Part shown: piece by piece, positions 1,330 through 15,450 of the stretch | Numbering within the stretch: position 1 is the stretch's first letter | Layout of the letters: each line of letters starts with the position of its first letter | From: Pseudomonas cavernae | Lineage (GTDB): Bacteria; Pseudomonadota; Gammaproteobacteria; Pseudomonadales; Pseudomonadaceae | Length of the DNA stretch: 64,000 nucleotides | Direction: 5' to 3' | Assembly (NCBI RefSeq): GCF_003595175.1 | Contig: NZ_CP032419.1 | Coordinates: forward strand, 1,240,001 to 1,304,000 | Position numbers and translations under genes: made by a program | Notes under the pieces: generated by a model | The model's database searches: none | Seen by the model: the letters and a program-made list of their open reading frames with translations, nothing else | Told to the model about the DNA's origin: nothing

Positions 1330-1493
1330 CTAGTGGCCTGTACGGTTGTTGGTTAACTCAAGTTCGGATGACTGAGGTTCTGAGACCAGGCGCTGCGACG
1401 AGTCATAGCAGGGCTATGGCGAGGAGCAGCAACGCCGTATCAGGGCCTCAGACGCCGAAATTGACTAATTGAACTAACCACACAGGCCACTAG
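1330..1493. repeat. MITE-like element A with central palindrome
   Basis: The ends are a perfect 12-base inverted repeat, CTAGTGGCCTGT, extended imperfectly inward. CATAGC-AGG-GCTATG lies at 1404-1418, exactly at the midpoint, preceded by AG and followed by GCGAG after a possible T-G closing pair. CTAG at both ends could be a 4-base target duplication. There is no coding capacity. It shares its central architecture with the elements at 1599, 3531 and 4949. Confidence 0.65.
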
Positions 1494-1525
1494 CTGCGTC
1501 GCCCGGATGCAATCCGGGAAAGCAC

Positions 1526-1602
1526 GTAGGATGGGTTGAGCGCAGCGATACCCATCGACCAGCAGCGATGGGTATCGGCGCTACGCGCCTCAGCCCATCC
1601 TA
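1526..1602. repeat. REPIN-like pair of inverted hairpins
   Basis: A left hairpin begins with the foot GTAG and has stem GATGGGT/ACCCATC around a loop containing GCGCAGCG. After a short spacer a right hairpin, again with stem GATGGGT/CCCATC, ends in CCTA. The layout, GTAG foot plus hairpin and its inverted partner, is that of REP doublets mobilised by RAYT-type transposases. The right foot touches the left end of the next element. Confidence 0.7.
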
Positions 1603-1870
1603 GGGTCTGTTGACGTTTCGTCACGGCCGCGACGGAGCCTGTTTTTGCGCGGGGCTAGGCGCGAGACGCGAAGTTTGGTCGTTCCAAATGAGCGTCGAGC
1701 AACGACGCGCCGCGCAAAAACAGGCCCGTCCCTGCGGGTTGCGCGGCAAATGGCGCCATGCGTCGTTGCGGGACTTGGCAAGGGAACGACCATTCCCTGC
1801 GTCCCGCGCCTAGCCTGGCGCCATTTGCCGCGGCAACGCGGTTCGCGACGAAGCGTCAACAGACCCTAGG
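1599..1870. mobile_element. Composite MITE-like element B: two inverted palindromic units
   Basis: The outer 24 bases are inverted repeats with one mismatch (the end begins CCTAGGGTCTGTTGACG). Inside are two arms. Unit 1 spans 1637-1725 with 16-base perfect arms. Unit 2 spans 1743-1831 with 16-base perfect arms. Each encloses 57 bases, and the two units are inverted relative to one another. Unit 1 has the central palindrome TTTGG-TCGTT-CCAAA at its midpoint, framed by AG and TGAG. Unit 2 has AGGGAA/TTCCCT near its midpoint. CTAG at 1600-1603 and 1866-1869 may be a target duplication. Small reading frames here are not convincing genes. Confidence 0.7.
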
Positions 1871-1882
1871 CAAAGGCCCAAC

Positions 1883-1912
1883 AAAAAAGGCGAAGCTCGC
1901 GCTTCGCCTTTT
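1883..1912 (-). terminator. Rho-independent terminator of rhlB
   Basis: A ten-base stem AAGGCGAAGC/GCTTCGCCTT (1887-1896 and 1901-1910) with loop TCGC is followed, read on the minus strand, by a run of T. It lies just after the rhlB stop codon. Confidence 0.85.
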
Positions 1913-1931
1913 CGATGCATCCCGCGGGCAC

Positions 1932-3398
1932 TCAGTGCTTGCGCGGTACCGACTTGAGCAGCTCGACCGGCGGGTATTCGCAGTTGATCTTGCGCCCGAG
2001 CAGGGCCTCGATCGGCGGCAGGGCGAAGGCGTCGTCCTCGCCGGCGAAGCTGATCGAGGTGCCGCTGGCGCCGGCGCGGCCGGTGCGGCCGATGCGGTGC
2101 ACGTAGTCGTCCGGCACTTCCGGCAGGGTGAAATTGATCACGTGGCTGATGCCTTCGATGTGGATGCCGCGGCCGGCCACGTCGGTGGCCACCAGCACGC
2201 GGATATGCCCGGCGCGGAAGCCTTCGAGGGTCTTGATGCGCTTGTGCTGCGGCACGTCGCCGGACATCTGCGCGGCGCTGACACCGTCCCTGACCAGGCG
2301 TTCCTCGATGCGCCGCACCTCATCCTTGCGGTTGGCGAAGACCATTACGCGGGTCCAGTCGTTCTGGGTGATCAGGTTGTACAGCAGCTTGTACTTGTCG
2401 CTGCCGGCCACGGCGTAGACGTGCTGCTCGACGGTATCGCTGGCGACGTTTTCCGACTCGATCTCGACGATCGCCGGGTCGGTGGTCCACTGCTTGGCCA
2501 GGTTCATCACGTCCTCGGTGAAGGTCGCGGAGAACAGCAGGGTCTGGCGTTCGCCCTTCGGTGGGGTCTGGCGGATGATCTGCCGGACCTGCGGGATGAA
2601 ACCCATGTCGAGCATGCGGTCGGCTTCGTCGAGGACCATCACCTCGACCATGTCCAGGTGCACTTCGCCGCGCTGGTTGAAGTCCAGCAGGCGGCCGGGG
2701 GTGGCGACGAGGATGTCGCAGTGGCGGGCTTCCAGCTGGCGCAGCTGTTTGTCGAAGTCCATGCCGCCGACGAAGCTCATGACGTTGAGGCCGGTGTACT
2801 TGGTCAGCGCCGCGGCGTCCTTGGCGATCTGCACCACCAGCTCGCGGGTCGGGGCGATCACAAGCGCGCGCGGTTCGCCCATGTAGCGTTCCTTCGGCGG
2901 CGGCGTCTGCAGCAGCTGGGTGATGATCGAGATGAGGAAGGCCGCGGTCTTGCCGGTGCCGGTCTGCGCGCGGCCGATGGCGTCCCGGCCCTTGAGGGTG
3001 AAGCCGAGCACGCCGGCCTGGATCGGTGTGCAGTAGGGGAAGCCGAGGTCGTGCAGGGCGTGCATCAGCTCGGGCGCCAGGGCGAAGTCATGGAAGCGGG
3101 TCTTGCCTTCCTGCGGTTCGACTGCGAAGTCTTCCAGCTTCCAAGTGCTGACCGACGGCTTGTGCAGTCGCTCGTGGTGCGGCTTGTCGGCCTTGGGCGG
3201 CTCGCTGCTGGGCTGTGTCTCGGCCGTGGCGGCGGTTTCGCGCGGTTTCGACTCGCGGGCCGGCTTGTCGGCTTTCGGCTTGCGGGCGCGGGTTTCACCC
3301 GCTTTGTCGGGGGTGGGAGCGGAAGAGCCGGTAACCGGGGCGGACGCCGGCTGTTCGCCTTCGCCCTTGCCAAACATTTTCTTGAGTGCTTTGAGCAC
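1932..3398 (-). CDS. rhlB: ATP-dependent DEAD-box RNA helicase RhlB
   Basis: This is a 488-residue DEAD-box helicase acting in mRNA turnover. A Lys/Arg/Pro/Ala-rich N-terminus of about 90 residues ([16 protein letters not shown]) precedes the core. Visible motifs in order are the Q motif region ([11 protein letters not shown]), AQTGTGKT near 148, [24 protein letters not shown] near 254, [13 protein letters not shown] and HRIGRTGR. The start is GTG at 3398 with GAAGAGA upstream. The distinctive N-terminal [12 protein letters not shown] matches Pseudomonas RhlB, which is longer than the E. coli protein. A terminator follows directly. The gene sits between two clusters of inverted-repeat elements. 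Confidence 0.9.
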
Positions 3399-3530
3399 GG
3401 GAATCTCTTCAATTGGTTAAGGAATGAACGGCCGCCAGTGTAAAGCAAGAAGCCGGTGTGGCGAAGTGCCGCGGCGTGTTGCCTGCCCCGCGGCCAGGGC
3501 AGGCCTTGGAGAGCGGTCGGAATCGGCTCA

Positions 3531-3670
3531 GAGGCTGTTCACGATCTCGCGAGCAAAGGTCAGGCAAGGCAAAAATGGCTGAGGACGCGGAGTTTACGAA
3601 TTGTAAATGAGCAGTCCGAAGCCATTTTTAACGCTGCATCACCGACGCGCAGCAGATCGTGAGCAGCCTC
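3531..3670. repeat. MITE-like element C with central palindrome
   Basis: The ends GAGGCTGTTCACGATCT and its inverted copy match 16 of 17. TTTAC-GAATT-GTAAA at 3593-3607 lies exactly at the midpoint and is preceded by AG and followed by TGAG. Flanking arms GGCAAAAATGGCT and GCCATTTTTAACGC are partly self-complementary. The right end touches the stop codon (TAA at 3671-3673 on the minus strand) of the dipeptidase gene. Confidence 0.7.
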
Positions 3671-4834
3671 TTAGGCGTCCGGCAGGTTGGCCAGCAGCAG
3701 GCGCTGCACGTTGCCGCCCATGATCGCGGCGATCTGCTCGGCGCTGAAGCCGGCCTGCTGCAGGCCCTCGGTCAGCTGGGCCAGGCCGGTGGCATCGAAG
3801 GGCGCATGAATGGTGCCGTTGAAGTCTGAGCCCAGGGCCACATGCTCGACGCCGACCTTATCGGCGGTATAGCGGATCGCCTTGACGATGGCGGCGACCG
3901 AGGTGGCGCACACCGCGGTGTCCCAGTAGCCGATGCCGATCACCCCGCCGGTGGCGGCGATGCGTTGCAGATGCTGGTCGCTGAGGTTGCGCGGCCCGGG
4001 GCAGGTGCCCTCGACGCCGGTGTGGGACACCAATACGGGGCGGCTGGCGATCGCCAACACGTCGTCGATCAGCGCCCGCGAGGCATGGGCGAGGTCGATC
4101 AGCATGCGTTTCTGTTCCAGGCGCGCCACCACGCGGCGGCCGAAGGGCGTCAGCCCGCCTTTGTCCAGGCCATGGGCGGAGCCGCCGACTTCGTTGTCGA
4201 AGAAGTGGGTCAGGCCGGTGATGCGGAAACCGGCCCCATACAGGCGGTCGACATTGTGCAGGTGGCCTTCCAGCGGGTGCAGGCCCTCGGTGGCGAGCAC
4301 GCCGGCCAGGCGCCGCGGGTCCCGTTGCCAGGCGCTGATGAAGTCGGCCAGTTCGCGTCGGTTGGTCACCAGCACCAGGCGACCGTCGCTGGCGGCCGCG
4401 GCCTGGTGCAGCTTCTCGCTCTGGTACAGCGCGCGTTCGAGCAGGCTGGTCCAGGTCGCGCGCGGCCAGCGCTGGGCCATGATCAGCAGGGTGATGTTGT
4501 CGCTGTCGCTGGCGTTGCGGTCGTAGTTCAGGCCGCGCGGGGTCTTGGTGACGGTGGAGAACACCTGCAGGCCGACCCGCCCTTCGAGCATGCGCGGCAG
4601 GTCGGAGTGGCCGTAGTCCACGCGCTTGAGCAGGTCGCGCTCCCAGAGCAGGGCGTCGTCATGCAGGTCGGCGATAAACAGGCGCTTGTGCAGCTGCTCG
4701 GCGGCCGGGCTGGCCGGGTAGGGCGGCGGCGACTCGACGCTGTTCATCCGCCGGTCGAGCATGGGCGGCAGGCTGAAGAACACGCTCAGGCCGACGATGG
4801 CCAGGAGCACGAGGGCAATCAGGAGTTTGCGCAT
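3671..4834 (-). CDS. Membrane-anchored dipeptidase, peptidase family M19
   Basis: The start is the ATG at 4834 with AGGGA nine bases upstream, giving 387 residues; an upstream in-frame extension has no ribosome site. Residues 5-22 are a hydrophobic anchor or uncleaved signal, so the catalytic domain probably faces the periplasm. M19 zinc-site features are visible: LHDD, ATEGLHP (Glu), DLAHAS (His), VSHTG (His) and GSDFNG (Asp). The family hydrolyses dipeptides, including some D-residues, using two zinc ions. The C-terminus is complete and its stop codon abuts element C. It is a single gene with no operon partner. Confidence 0.88.
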   Translation of the reverse strand: MRKLLIALVLLAIVGLSVFFSLPPMLDRRMNSVESPPPYPASPAAEQLHKRLFIADLHDDALLWERDLLKRVDYGHSDLPRMLEGRVGLQVFSTVTKTPRGLNYDRNASDSDNITLLIMAQRWPRATWTSLLERALYQSEKLHQAAAASDGRLVLVTNRRELADFISAWQRDPRRLAGVLATEGLHPLEGHLHNVDRLYGAGFRITGLTHFFDNEVGGSAHGLDKGGLTPFGRRVVARLEQKRMLIDLAHASRALIDDVLAIASRPVLVSHTGVEGTCPGPRNLSDQHLQRIAATGGVIGIGYWDTAVCATSVAAIVKAIRYTADKVGVEHVALGSDFNGTIHAPFDATGLAQLTEGLQQAGFSAEQIAAIMGGNVQRLLLANLPDA

Positions 4835-4948
4835 GGAGTCGTCCCTGTTGTTATGCGCCGACTGTAGCAAGGACGAAAAGAAAAATGCGATGGATAGCGA
4901 GCGAGCCGCAGCCTGTAGAGTGGGCTGTTTAGGCATTGTCCCGTGATT

Positions 4949-5089
4949 AAACCTGCGATTGGCAGCGAGCGAGCCGGGTCGAGGCAAGGAGCCTGGAGCG
5001 CAGGCGCCGCAGTGAACTGCAGTTCATGAGGACGGCGAGCACCACGCGACGCAGCACCGGCCTGGCGCAGCCGTTGCCAGCGCAGGTTT
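4949..5089. repeat. MITE-like element D with central palindrome
   Basis: The ends AAACCTGCGATTGGCAGCG and the inverted right end AAACCTGCG-CTGGCAACG align with one gap and one mismatch. The perfect palindrome TGAACTGCAGTTCA (5013-5026) lies at the midpoint and is framed by AG and TGAG. The right end runs into the stop codon of the GGDEF gene. The ends are weaker than those of elements A-C. Confidence 0.5.
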
Positions 5090-6027
5090 TAGCCGCAGAG
5101 GCAGTTGCGGCCCTGCTGCTTGGCCTGATAGAGGGCGCTGTCGGCGCGGGCGATCAGGCTTTGCAGGCTGTCCTGCGCGCGCATCTGGGCCAGGCCGATG
5201 GACACGGTGACGCCAGGCAGGACCCCGACCGGCGAATAGAAGTTGGGGACCAGCTCCAGACTCTGGCGCAGCCGCTCGCCGATGCTGCGGCCTTCGTCGC
5301 TGGCGATTTCCGGCAGCAGAGTGACGAACTCCTCGCCGCCATAGCGCACCAGACTGTCCTTCGGCCGCAGTTGCGAGCGCAGCGTGTGGGCGACCAGGCA
5401 CAGGGCGTAGTCACCGGCCAGGTGGCCGTGCTGGTCGTTGTAGGGTTTGAAGTGGTCGACATCGATCATCAGCATGCTCAGCGGCTGGCCATTGAAGGCG
5501 CAGCGAGTGCTTTCCCGCTCGAACACGTGCTCCAGCCAGCGGCGGTTGAAGGAACCGGTGAGGGTGTCGAGATTGGCATGCTGCTCGCTGTCGATAATCA
5601 GGCGGTTGCCCTGGCGCACCCGTTTGCAGAGCAGCTCGAGCAGGTTCTGCATCAGCTGTGGCGATTGGCTGAATAGCTTGAGCAGCGATTCCCGATGCAG
5701 ACGCAGCGCGGTGGATGGCTGGGTCGCCACCACATAGGCGGATGGGTGATCGTTGTCGATGAAGCTGATTTCGCCGGCGCACTCGCCGGGCGTGAGGGTG
5801 CTGACTGGCTGGTTGTCCAGCGAGCCGAGATAGACCTTGAACTCGCCCGACAGCAGCAGGTACAGATGCTGGTTGCGGTTGAAGGGGGAAAGCAGGATTT
5901 CGCCACTGTCCAGCGTGCAGGCCTGAAACTCCTTGAGCAGCTGCCCGAGGATGCGGCTGGCGACTTTATGGAACAGGTGCAGATGGCGAAGTTGCTGGAG
6001 ATCTTCCTGCCAAGGGGTGGTTTTCAT
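5089..6027 (-). CDS. Cyclic-nucleotide-binding-domain diguanylate cyclase (GGDEF)
   Basis: From MKTTPWQEDL at 6027 the protein has 312 residues. Residues about 15-130 form a Crp-like cyclic-nucleotide-binding fold (LSPFNRNQHLYLLLSGEFKVY, then the TPGECAGEISF turn). Residues about 150-312 form a GGDEF domain with the active signature GGEEF near 230 and an RPKD inhibitory site five residues before it. It should make cyclic di-GMP, with activity gated by a ligand or by protein contacts through the sensor and feedback inhibition at the RxxD site. No Shine-Dalgarno is clear; ATG at 6114 (MSSKVKAL) is an alternative start. No EAL domain or DNA-binding helix is present, so it is not a Crp regulator. 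The stop codon overlaps element D. Confidence 0.88.
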   Translation of the reverse strand: MKTTPWQEDLQQLRHLHLFHKVASRILGQLLKEFQACTLDSGEILLSPFNRNQHLYLLLSGEFKVYLGSLDNQPVSTLTPGECAGEISFIDNDHPSAYVVATQPSTALRLHRESLLKLFSQSPQLMQNLLELLCKRVRQGNRLIIDSEQHANLDTLTGSFNRRWLEHVFERESTRCAFNGQPLSMLMIDVDHFKPYNDQHGHLAGDYALCLVAHTLRSQLRPKDSLVRYGGEEFVTLLPEIASDEGRSIGERLRQSLELVPNFYSPVGVLPGVTVSIGLAQMRAQDSLQSLIARADSALYQAKQQGRNCLCG

Positions 6028-6248
6028 GGCGAGAAAGAACTCGTGGGCTGAAGCTTGTGAGCCGCGGGCATCGCGAACGCTCCCTGTCGTTAATGCCTTT
6101 ACCTTAGACGACATTATTGCGCCACTACTTTGGCGGCAGTCCTCTGGCAGGGTTGAGCCGACCAGCGGTCGTGGCGGAGGAGCCGGCCGCCGGCTGCTCG
6201 ACCACAAGGGTACGGCTTGCGGCGAGCAGCCGTCGGCGTGGCTAAACT

Positions 6249-14434: not shown

Positions 14435-15133
14435 ATGATCACCCTGTTCCAATTCCCCCGCGCTTTCGATGTGCCCAACCCCAGCCCTTTCTGCCTGAAG
14501 GTGGAGACCTTCCTGCGCCTGACCGGCCTGGAATACCAGGTCAAAGCCGTGGCCAACCCCGGCAAGGGGCCGAAGGGCAAGCTGCCGTTCATCAAGCTGG
14601 ACGCGGAGGTCATTGCCGACTCGGCGATCATCCTGCGCAGCCTCAGCGAGCGCCTGGGCCTGACTCTCGACAGCCACCTAGACGCCGCCGGACGCGGCCG
14701 CAGCCTGGCGATCACGCGCCTGTGCGACGAGCACCTGGCACCGCTGATGGTGTATTTCCGCTGGCTCGATGACGAGGGCTGGGCGCAGGTCAAGCCGGCG
14801 TTCTTCGGCCGGCTGCCGGCGCCGCTGCGCCTGCTGGTGCCGCGTCTGGTGCAGGGCAAGATCCGCAAATCGCTGCAGGCCCAGGGGCTGGGGCGGCACA
14901 ATCGCGACGAGCTGCTGACCTTCGCCCGCGAGGATTTGCAGGCGCTCAGCGACCTGCTCGGCGCTGCGCCGTACTTCGGCGGGGTGCAGCCGTGCAGTGC
15001 CGATGCGGCGGCCTATGGCGTGCTGGCCAACCTGATCCTCTGCACGGTGCAGACCCCGCTCGGTCGCCTGGCGCGGGAGTTCCCGAGCCTGGTGGCCTAC
15101 TGCGAGCGCCTGCGCGACAAGTTCTGGGCATGA
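14435..15133 (+). CDS. Glutathione S-transferase-like protein (Faxc/metaxin-type)
   Basis: The second of two ATGs, at 14435, is preferred because AGGA lies eight bases before it. The product has 232 residues. The N-terminal thioredoxin-like domain begins [30 protein letters not shown] in pattern, with the PSPFCLK active-site loop and GKLPFIKLD with the cis-proline; E and SA-type contacts occur in VIADSAIIL. The C-terminal half is helical and ends with [11 protein letters not shown]. This is the Faxc/metaxin branch of glutathione transferases. Substrate unknown. Its stop codon overlaps the next start by four bases, indicating coupled translation. Confidence 0.82.
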
Positions 15134-15450
15134 CGGCGGCGAGCAAGACCTGGTTCGTCTACCTAGTGCGCACCGCCAACGGCGCGCTGTACTGCGGCAT
15201 CAGCGATGACCCTGAGCGCCGCTTCGCTCAGCACCAGAGCGGCAAGGGCGCGCGTTTCTTCCATTCCAGCCCGGCGCAGGCCCTGGTGTATGTCGAGGCC
15301 TGCGGCGCCAAGGGCGAAGCGCTGCGCCGCGAGCGGGCGATCAAACGCTTGCCGAAGAGCGCCAAGGAGCGTCTGGTGCTGGCCGCTGCGGGTATTCATA
15401 TGCCTGATGGCGCTGTATGTGCGGCCAGCCAAGAGGCTACGCCGGCCTGA
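15130..15450 (+). CDS. GIY-YIG nuclease-superfamily protein (YhbQ-like)
   Basis: The product has 106 residues. It starts at the ATG at 15130, overlapping the glutathione-transferase stop codon as ATGA. The GIY-YIG pattern appears as [15 protein letters not shown], followed by the conserved [14 protein letters not shown] and [20 protein letters not shown] elements. This small stand-alone form resembles E. coli YhbQ, for which only general structure-specific DNA nuclease activity is suspected. The C-terminal tail after LVLAAAG is not conserved. Being translationally coupled to a transferase may simply reflect compact packing. Confidence 0.85.

Follow-up and report, generated by a model that had tools for sequence, protein, structure and literature searches.

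MITE-like hairpin elements of Pseudomonas keep a strand-specific central fold and are probably distant relatives of ERIC repeats

Repeats of the ERIC family were reportedly described in 1991 and, to our knowledge, the reason for the conservation of their centre is still open. ERIC elements, also called IRU or RU-1, are long imperfect hairpins with terminal repeats and TA at their ends, and their RNase E effect in Yersinia is described as depending crucially on orientation (PMC2229807); they occur in Enterobacteriaceae and Vibrionaceae (PMC10969869), and a stem-loop survey recovers them as a folding family (PMC2267715). In Pseudomonas, the MITEs (miniature inverted-repeat transposable elements) derived from insertion sequences, namely MITEPsy1 and the P. 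fluorescens repeats R0, R2 and R178, resemble the family described here in being short and non-coding with terminal or internal inverted repeats. Transposition has been described for MITEPsy1, for which there are 71% homologues in P. stutzeri and similar sequences in other places (PMC3189936), and the P. fluorescens repeats favour tail-to-tail gene pairs, R178 being 101 bp long and present in 9-28 copies per strain (PMC2718517). Here we describe four elements, A to D, from a stretch of 64,000 nucleotides of the Pseudomonas cavernae genome (contig NZ_CP032419.1, positions 1,240,001 to 1,304,000), referred to as the window. An earlier note, made from the letters of the window, had proposed that the four are MITE-like members of one superfamily whose central palindrome is maintained in its pairing and not in its sequence.

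By blastn, element C had matches in 28 of 57 related genomes, among them members of other families of the order, and 30 loci were fetched. The cores of 27 loci from 25 genomes, including C and a second copy from the genome of the window (G000), were aligned (alignment A1) and turned into a covariance model, R1, leaving out three loci, of which two lacked the centre pattern and one had an insertion. Built from copies of C, R1 independently recovered unit 1 of element B (45.5 bits, E 5.3e-13), element D (41.1 bits, E 1.8e-11) and element A (22.6 bits, E 4.2e-5), none of which was in the training set, and this bears out the proposal that the four elements form one superfamily. Unit 2 of B was matched on the opposite strand (21.7 bits, E 8.5e-5), and C itself scored 120 bits (E 1.3e-38) but belongs to the training set; the E-values of R1, here and below, are rough. 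The predicted folds of A, C and D are each a single long hairpin, and that of B is two hairpins within a common stem. The features of the window are as follows.

1330-1493, plus strand: element A, with terminal repeats that carry CTAG at either end; R1 match 1368-1455, tip palindrome 1404-1418.
1600-1869, no strand assigned: element B, one terminal-repeat pair enclosing two related hairpin units in opposite orientations, as seen from the fold.
1635-1727, plus strand: unit 1 of element B, an R1 match with tip palindrome 1674-1688.
1741-1833, minus strand: unit 2 of element B, an R1 match on the other strand.
3531-3670, plus strand: element C; R1 match 3545-3656, tip palindrome 3593-3607.
3671-3673, minus strand: stop codon of a leftward open reading frame (ORF), TTA on the plus strand, adjoining the right end of C.
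4950-5088 (4949-5089 in the earlier note), plus strand: element D; R1 match 4965-5074, tip palindrome 5013-5026.
5089-5091, minus strand: stop codon of the leftward ORF 5089-6207, TTA on the plus strand, adjoining the right end of D.

The palindrome was said to lie at the exact centre of each unit, and it does: unit and palindrome midpoints are 1411.5 and 1411 in A, both 1681 in unit 1 of B taken as 1637-1725, 3600.5 and 3600 in C, and 5019 and 5019.5 in D taken as 4949-5089. Such centring is partly trivial for any long hairpin, but the fixed frame of AG before and TGAG after the palindrome is not trivial, and it too is present, element A reading AG-T(palindrome)G-CGAG with a T-G closing pair just as had been written. 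A pattern search, which asked for AG or AA, then five-base arms forming four or more pairs, then TGA or CGA, found the frame in 58 of the 62 R1 matches from the own genome (TGAG in 57, AG in 57), in 36 of 37 class-wide matches (TGAG in 36, AG in 35) and in 26 of 27 distant matches (TGAG in 24, AG in 24). The strict form, with AG, five pairs and TGAG, never occurred in shuffled sequences (0 of 62 and 0 of 27). Within G000 the palindrome is mostly constant (TTTAC/GTAAA in 51 of 58), and the variation lies between families and lineages, with nine stem versions among the frame matches of the class set and eight among those of the distant set. A further 89 matches from named organisms were fetched by the TTTAC..GTAAA pattern and are not usable as evidence on the variability of the palindrome.

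Evidence on pairing comes from alignment A3, which holds 37 R1 matches from 37 further genomes, none of which had entered A1; L108, a 38th locus, gave no match at the threshold. In A3, 97.6% of cells pair, two-sided changes occur at 27 of 32 pairs, and covariation is 0.565 compared with 0.168 for shuffled and at most 0.091 for slid alignments, although A3 was fitted to the structure, which favours covariation, the shuffles ignore relatedness and some of the genomes belong to a common genus. The tip stem appears in nine versions, every one of which is paired. As proposed, it is the pairing and not the sequence that is maintained at the centre. Central covariation and the presence of the frame in other copies, on which the earlier note had staked its reading, were both reproduced. 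Around the stem the letters are kept, AG in 35 of 37 and TGAG in 37 of 37, and so are a G-T pair at the tip base (36 of 37) and a tandem GA/GA loop (35 of 37). Besides the constant G-T pair, A3 contains 50 G-T cells and 2 A-C cells; because these counts would swap on the opposite strand, it is the plus strand that keeps the fold. Among the class-wide, own and distant cores, the plus strand is also the more stable in 36 of 37, 55 of 62 and 19 of 27, respectively, with RNA parameters, and in 37 of 37, 51 of 62 and 18 of 27 with DNA parameters. Selection on the fold acts in the plus strand.

In G000, all 150 scored candidates (of 1343 first-look candidates in all) match R1, and 62 matches at E <=0.01 in 1.264 Mb extrapolate to about 240 copies per genome. 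Twelve places in this genome cover at least 163 of the 164 bases of element A at 85-100% identity, and at least six further places match element B at 98-100%. At E <=0.001, R1 matched 158 of 369 sampled genomes and 126 of 272 genera of the class, and 118 of 398 genomes of a phylum sample, 66 of them listed as outside the class. A scan of named genomes for the TTTAC..GTAAA pattern yielded at least 120 stretches; the 80 matches listed are mostly from Pseudomonas, with others from Stutzerimonas, Azotobacter and Chitinimonas. Stretches similar to C are found in 13 plasmid records and one phage record, and stretches similar to B in four plasmid records. Two contigs of gut metagenome-assembled genomes labelled Alistipes and Tidjanibacter (L225, L227) also carry pattern and R1 matches, which likely reflects contamination.

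The elements carry terminal inverted repeats. GARCCTGTT.., the end type seen most often in G000, lies between 3-bp sequences, mostly TNA, that are identical in 26 of 38 copies, against a mean of 7.7 and a maximum of 17 of 38 in shuffled controls; three of the misses are nested B units, and 19 of the 62 matches have no assigned end type. The GGTTCTGTACGAAAAGT end type lies at TA in 3 of 4 copies, and in the element A type CTAG is present at each end, in 8 of 8 copies fetched. In the window, D is flanked by TTA at 4947-4949 and again at 5089-5091, as read from the sequence, and the flanks of C, TCA (3528-3530) and TTA (3671-3673), are not identical. Relatives contain empty sites: the genes flanking C stand 18 bases apart in aligned blocks of G013 compared with 204 in the window, and 38 apart in G001 compared with 209, and gene spacing likewise excludes D in both genomes and A and B in G001. 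The target letters before insertion were not readable because the intergenic junctions of the relatives are too diverged. With terminal repeats, 3-bp duplications and empty sites, the elements are MITE-like, as proposed.

The further suggestion of a single mobilising activity for all four elements is not supported, since terminal repeats and target duplications differ among the families; a common binding activity may act on the core. The ends and duplications point to movement in trans, and duplications of this size suggest IS5-like DDE transposases. Three DDE_Tnp_1 elements of G000 (L289, L290, L291) have inverted ends, CCAGGCTGTGTGAAAA, similar to those of the L018 copy, and could be partners of that end type. 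A few long end pairs met in the scan for a partner, labelled R2, L220, L230 and L074 in our analysis, occur mostly in stretches with more than one short element.

Copies of the family are not oriented at random beside genes. Taking ORFs that span 300 bases or more, and counting a stop codon when it lay no further than about 20 bases from an end of the copy, we found one at the right end only in 93 copies and at the left end only in 15, with 20 having both and 71 neither (199 usable copies). The 3' end of a copy tends to adjoin the stop codon of an oppositely read gene, as is the case for C and D in the window. The counts of right only and left only were 28 and 4 in the own genome (62 copies), 41 and 4 in named organisms (76 of 89 usable), and 14 and 1 in distant genomes (26 of 30 loci, leaving out three tandem neighbours and one short match). 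By end type, they were 33:6 for the main ends and 52:7 for unclassified ends.

A second bias follows replication. The plus strand in G000 is mostly lagging-sense (12+/47- on the arm with positive skew, 54+/28- on the other), 101 of 141 copies agreeing with replication direction after 9 of 150 near skew switch points were left out. In G377, a genome from another family with 62 R1 matches, strand counts of 4+/20- and 32+/3- mean that 52 of 59 follow replication, with three matches below 250 kb left out and one of six skew samples near zero; merging tandem copies gives 4/17 and 27/3. When the two biases were compared in G000 using rough gene calls, copies abutting stop codons followed the gene (25 vs 2) and copies away from stops followed the fork (23 vs 8).

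With these properties in hand, the family can be compared to ERIC. The ERIC core was present in 5375 of 5426 E. coli genomes, and its centre, GGAG-CTTAC-ATAA-GTAAG-TGA, has a GA/GA loop and the same G-T pair as the R1 family. In four E. coli stretches, representing three places, ERIC was the best R1 match and on the same strand, with scores of only 11.7-15.3 bits; one of the three places adjoins a stop codon (ybhI) at its right end, in line with the stop-codon bias above, and two adjoin none. A blastn search with E. coli ERIC gave no match in G000 and matched one of 339 genomes of the class, G377. The centre of its two ERIC-matching copies is changed in pairs, to TGCAC..GTGCA from the CTTAC/GTAAG of E. 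coli, and R1 gives them 19.7 bits (E 4e-5) and 14.1 bits (E 0.003) in a search over 6 kb. A bridging locus, L356, has a TTTAC..GTAAA tip and an R1 match at E 5e-5 genome-wide, and in a blastn search of a small set it aligns with ERIC at 75% over 110 bases (E 1e-14 for that set). The two share a centre of the form GGAG-stem-TGA, the GA/GA loop, the G-T pair and the folding strand. In contrast, their stems and ends differ and the R1 scores of E. coli ERIC are weak. Standard R1 copies measure 139-145 bp with TNA or TA targets depending on end type; ERIC is near 127 bp with TA. Taken together, ERIC is probably a distant relative of the R1 superfamily.

A broader proposal, which we advance tentatively and rate as slightly less probable than its negation, is that ERIC and the Pseudomonas elements are branches of one class-wide superfamily of mobile structured nucleic acids in which a conserved strand-specific AG-stem-TGAG fold is the working part and sets orientation at stops and forks, and ends are exchanged between transposase systems. 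With a superfamily of the spread found here, its paired changes, single folding strand and orientation biases, the purpose of the core in ERIC-like repeats becomes a set of concrete questions, namely which strand, which loop and which protein, and structure search detects such repeats where sequence search fails. No paper on a Pseudomonas ERIC-like superfamily or on the orientation rules was found in the open-access literature, with most subscription papers falling outside that scope. Compared by description only, the MITEPsy1 homologues and R178 could be members described piecemeal; the printed ends of MITEPsy1, used as an exact pattern and the only part compared, matched nothing in plasmids or in fetched loci, and 0 of 249 genomes of the genus Pseudomonas. 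A known RNA family was rejected as the identity of the elements, since in an Rfam scan of the window one tRNA alone reached the gathering score and no family did so over A-D. The E. coli ERIC at L039:159-282 matches the Rfam family RF02818 (V_AS5, a Vibrio antisense RNA) at E 4e-7, below the gathering score, and RF02818 may be a transcribed ERIC copy.

We observed that one model covers the four elements, that paired positions change together and that one strand keeps the fold; we also observed terminal repeats, duplicated targets, empty sites and biased orientation. To account for these observations we infer a role for the fold, and give the following reading, a shielded-hairpin model, an even chance of being right: the elements form one superfamily of short terminal-repeat hairpins whose plus strand keeps a fold with an AG-stem-TGAG tip while the letters of its stems change. 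Transposases of more than one kind would likely mobilise the elements in trans, and the plus strand would act, as RNA or as exposed DNA, while single-stranded. To spread, an element would depend on its folded strand, the plus strand of R1, whereas the exposed fold would burden the host, such that copies would survive chiefly at places where a passing polymerase uses the plus strand as its template, entering from the element's 3' end. At stop codons this would be the transcription template of the neighbouring gene, and elsewhere the leading-strand template. The tandem G-A loop with its adjoining constant G-T pair would probably be read by a binding protein or nuclease. Shielding suggests itself because, under both orientation rules, the plus strand is the polymerase's template, so that transcription of the abutting gene does not copy it into RNA of its own sense and the lagging template does not expose it.

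Several results weigh against this reading. The stop rule is weak in the class sample (10 right only, 6 left only; 35 of 37 usable) and absent for the CAGGCTGTTGAA end type (3:2), and the replication rule does not reach significance in G012 (20 of 33) and is absent from G421 (4 of 8). In G000, stop-abutting copies show no preference for either fork direction (12 and 13), and those away from stops show none relative to flanking or co-directional genes (10 and 9); neither result is what a plain cost of exposure predicts. RNA and DNA parameters alike favour the plus strand and do not tell an RNA from a DNA role, and no transcript was seen. Nor was an autonomous partner, a transposase gene with ends matching the elements such as the earlier note had proposed to look for, found in the roughly 2.1 Mb scanned or among the three DDE_Tnp_1 genes, the one transposase family covered.

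We consider it unlikely that the elements are instead RNA regulators acting in cis, the plus-strand RNA hairpin destabilising the transcript that carries it, as reported for Yersinia ERIC, and sense copies at gene ends being lost. The stop rule, the orientation dependence said to be crucial for the RNase E effect (PMC2229807), and the suitability of G-T pairs and tandem G-A for RNA all fit such a role, but copies away from stops track the fork and not the flanking genes.

Similarly improbable, in our judgement, is insertion in a fixed direction, with a transposition machinery that reads the core and is oriented by the gene at stops and by the fork elsewhere. Tn7, which has two target pathways, would be a loose parallel. 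Stop-abutting and other copies obeying different rules would follow naturally, and the stop rule holds for main and unclassified ends alike and so is tied to the core. Yet no such machinery was identified, the CAGGCTGTTGAA ends lack the bias, and 3-bp duplications are not those of Tn7. Tn7, integron attC sites and IS200/IS605 are comparable only in how they work, with orientation fixed by stop codon or fork and strand-specific folds with kept mismatches; unlike them, the R1 elements are small and non-coding with 3-bp duplications. Finally, template-switch correction between the arms of a functionless fold with an inherited frame would yield two-sided changes without selection, but it would erase mismatches and has no strand sense, and the kept GA/GA loop, the kept tip G-T pair and the excess of G-T over A-C cells make it very improbable.

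A few observations concern individual copies. The window contains one additional weak R1 match at 15109-15203 (16 bits, E 0.0075). Extended copies (L148:18581-18747, L166:13627-13795, L124:4474-4641 and similar long matches) have extra small hairpins beside the tip stem, with tips such as CCCTTCGGG and GCCGCAAGCGGC, and in some of them additional hairpins lie 5' as well. In G377, three copies lie in tandem about 121 bases apart at C1:845509-845864, and the same genome contains more close neighbours.

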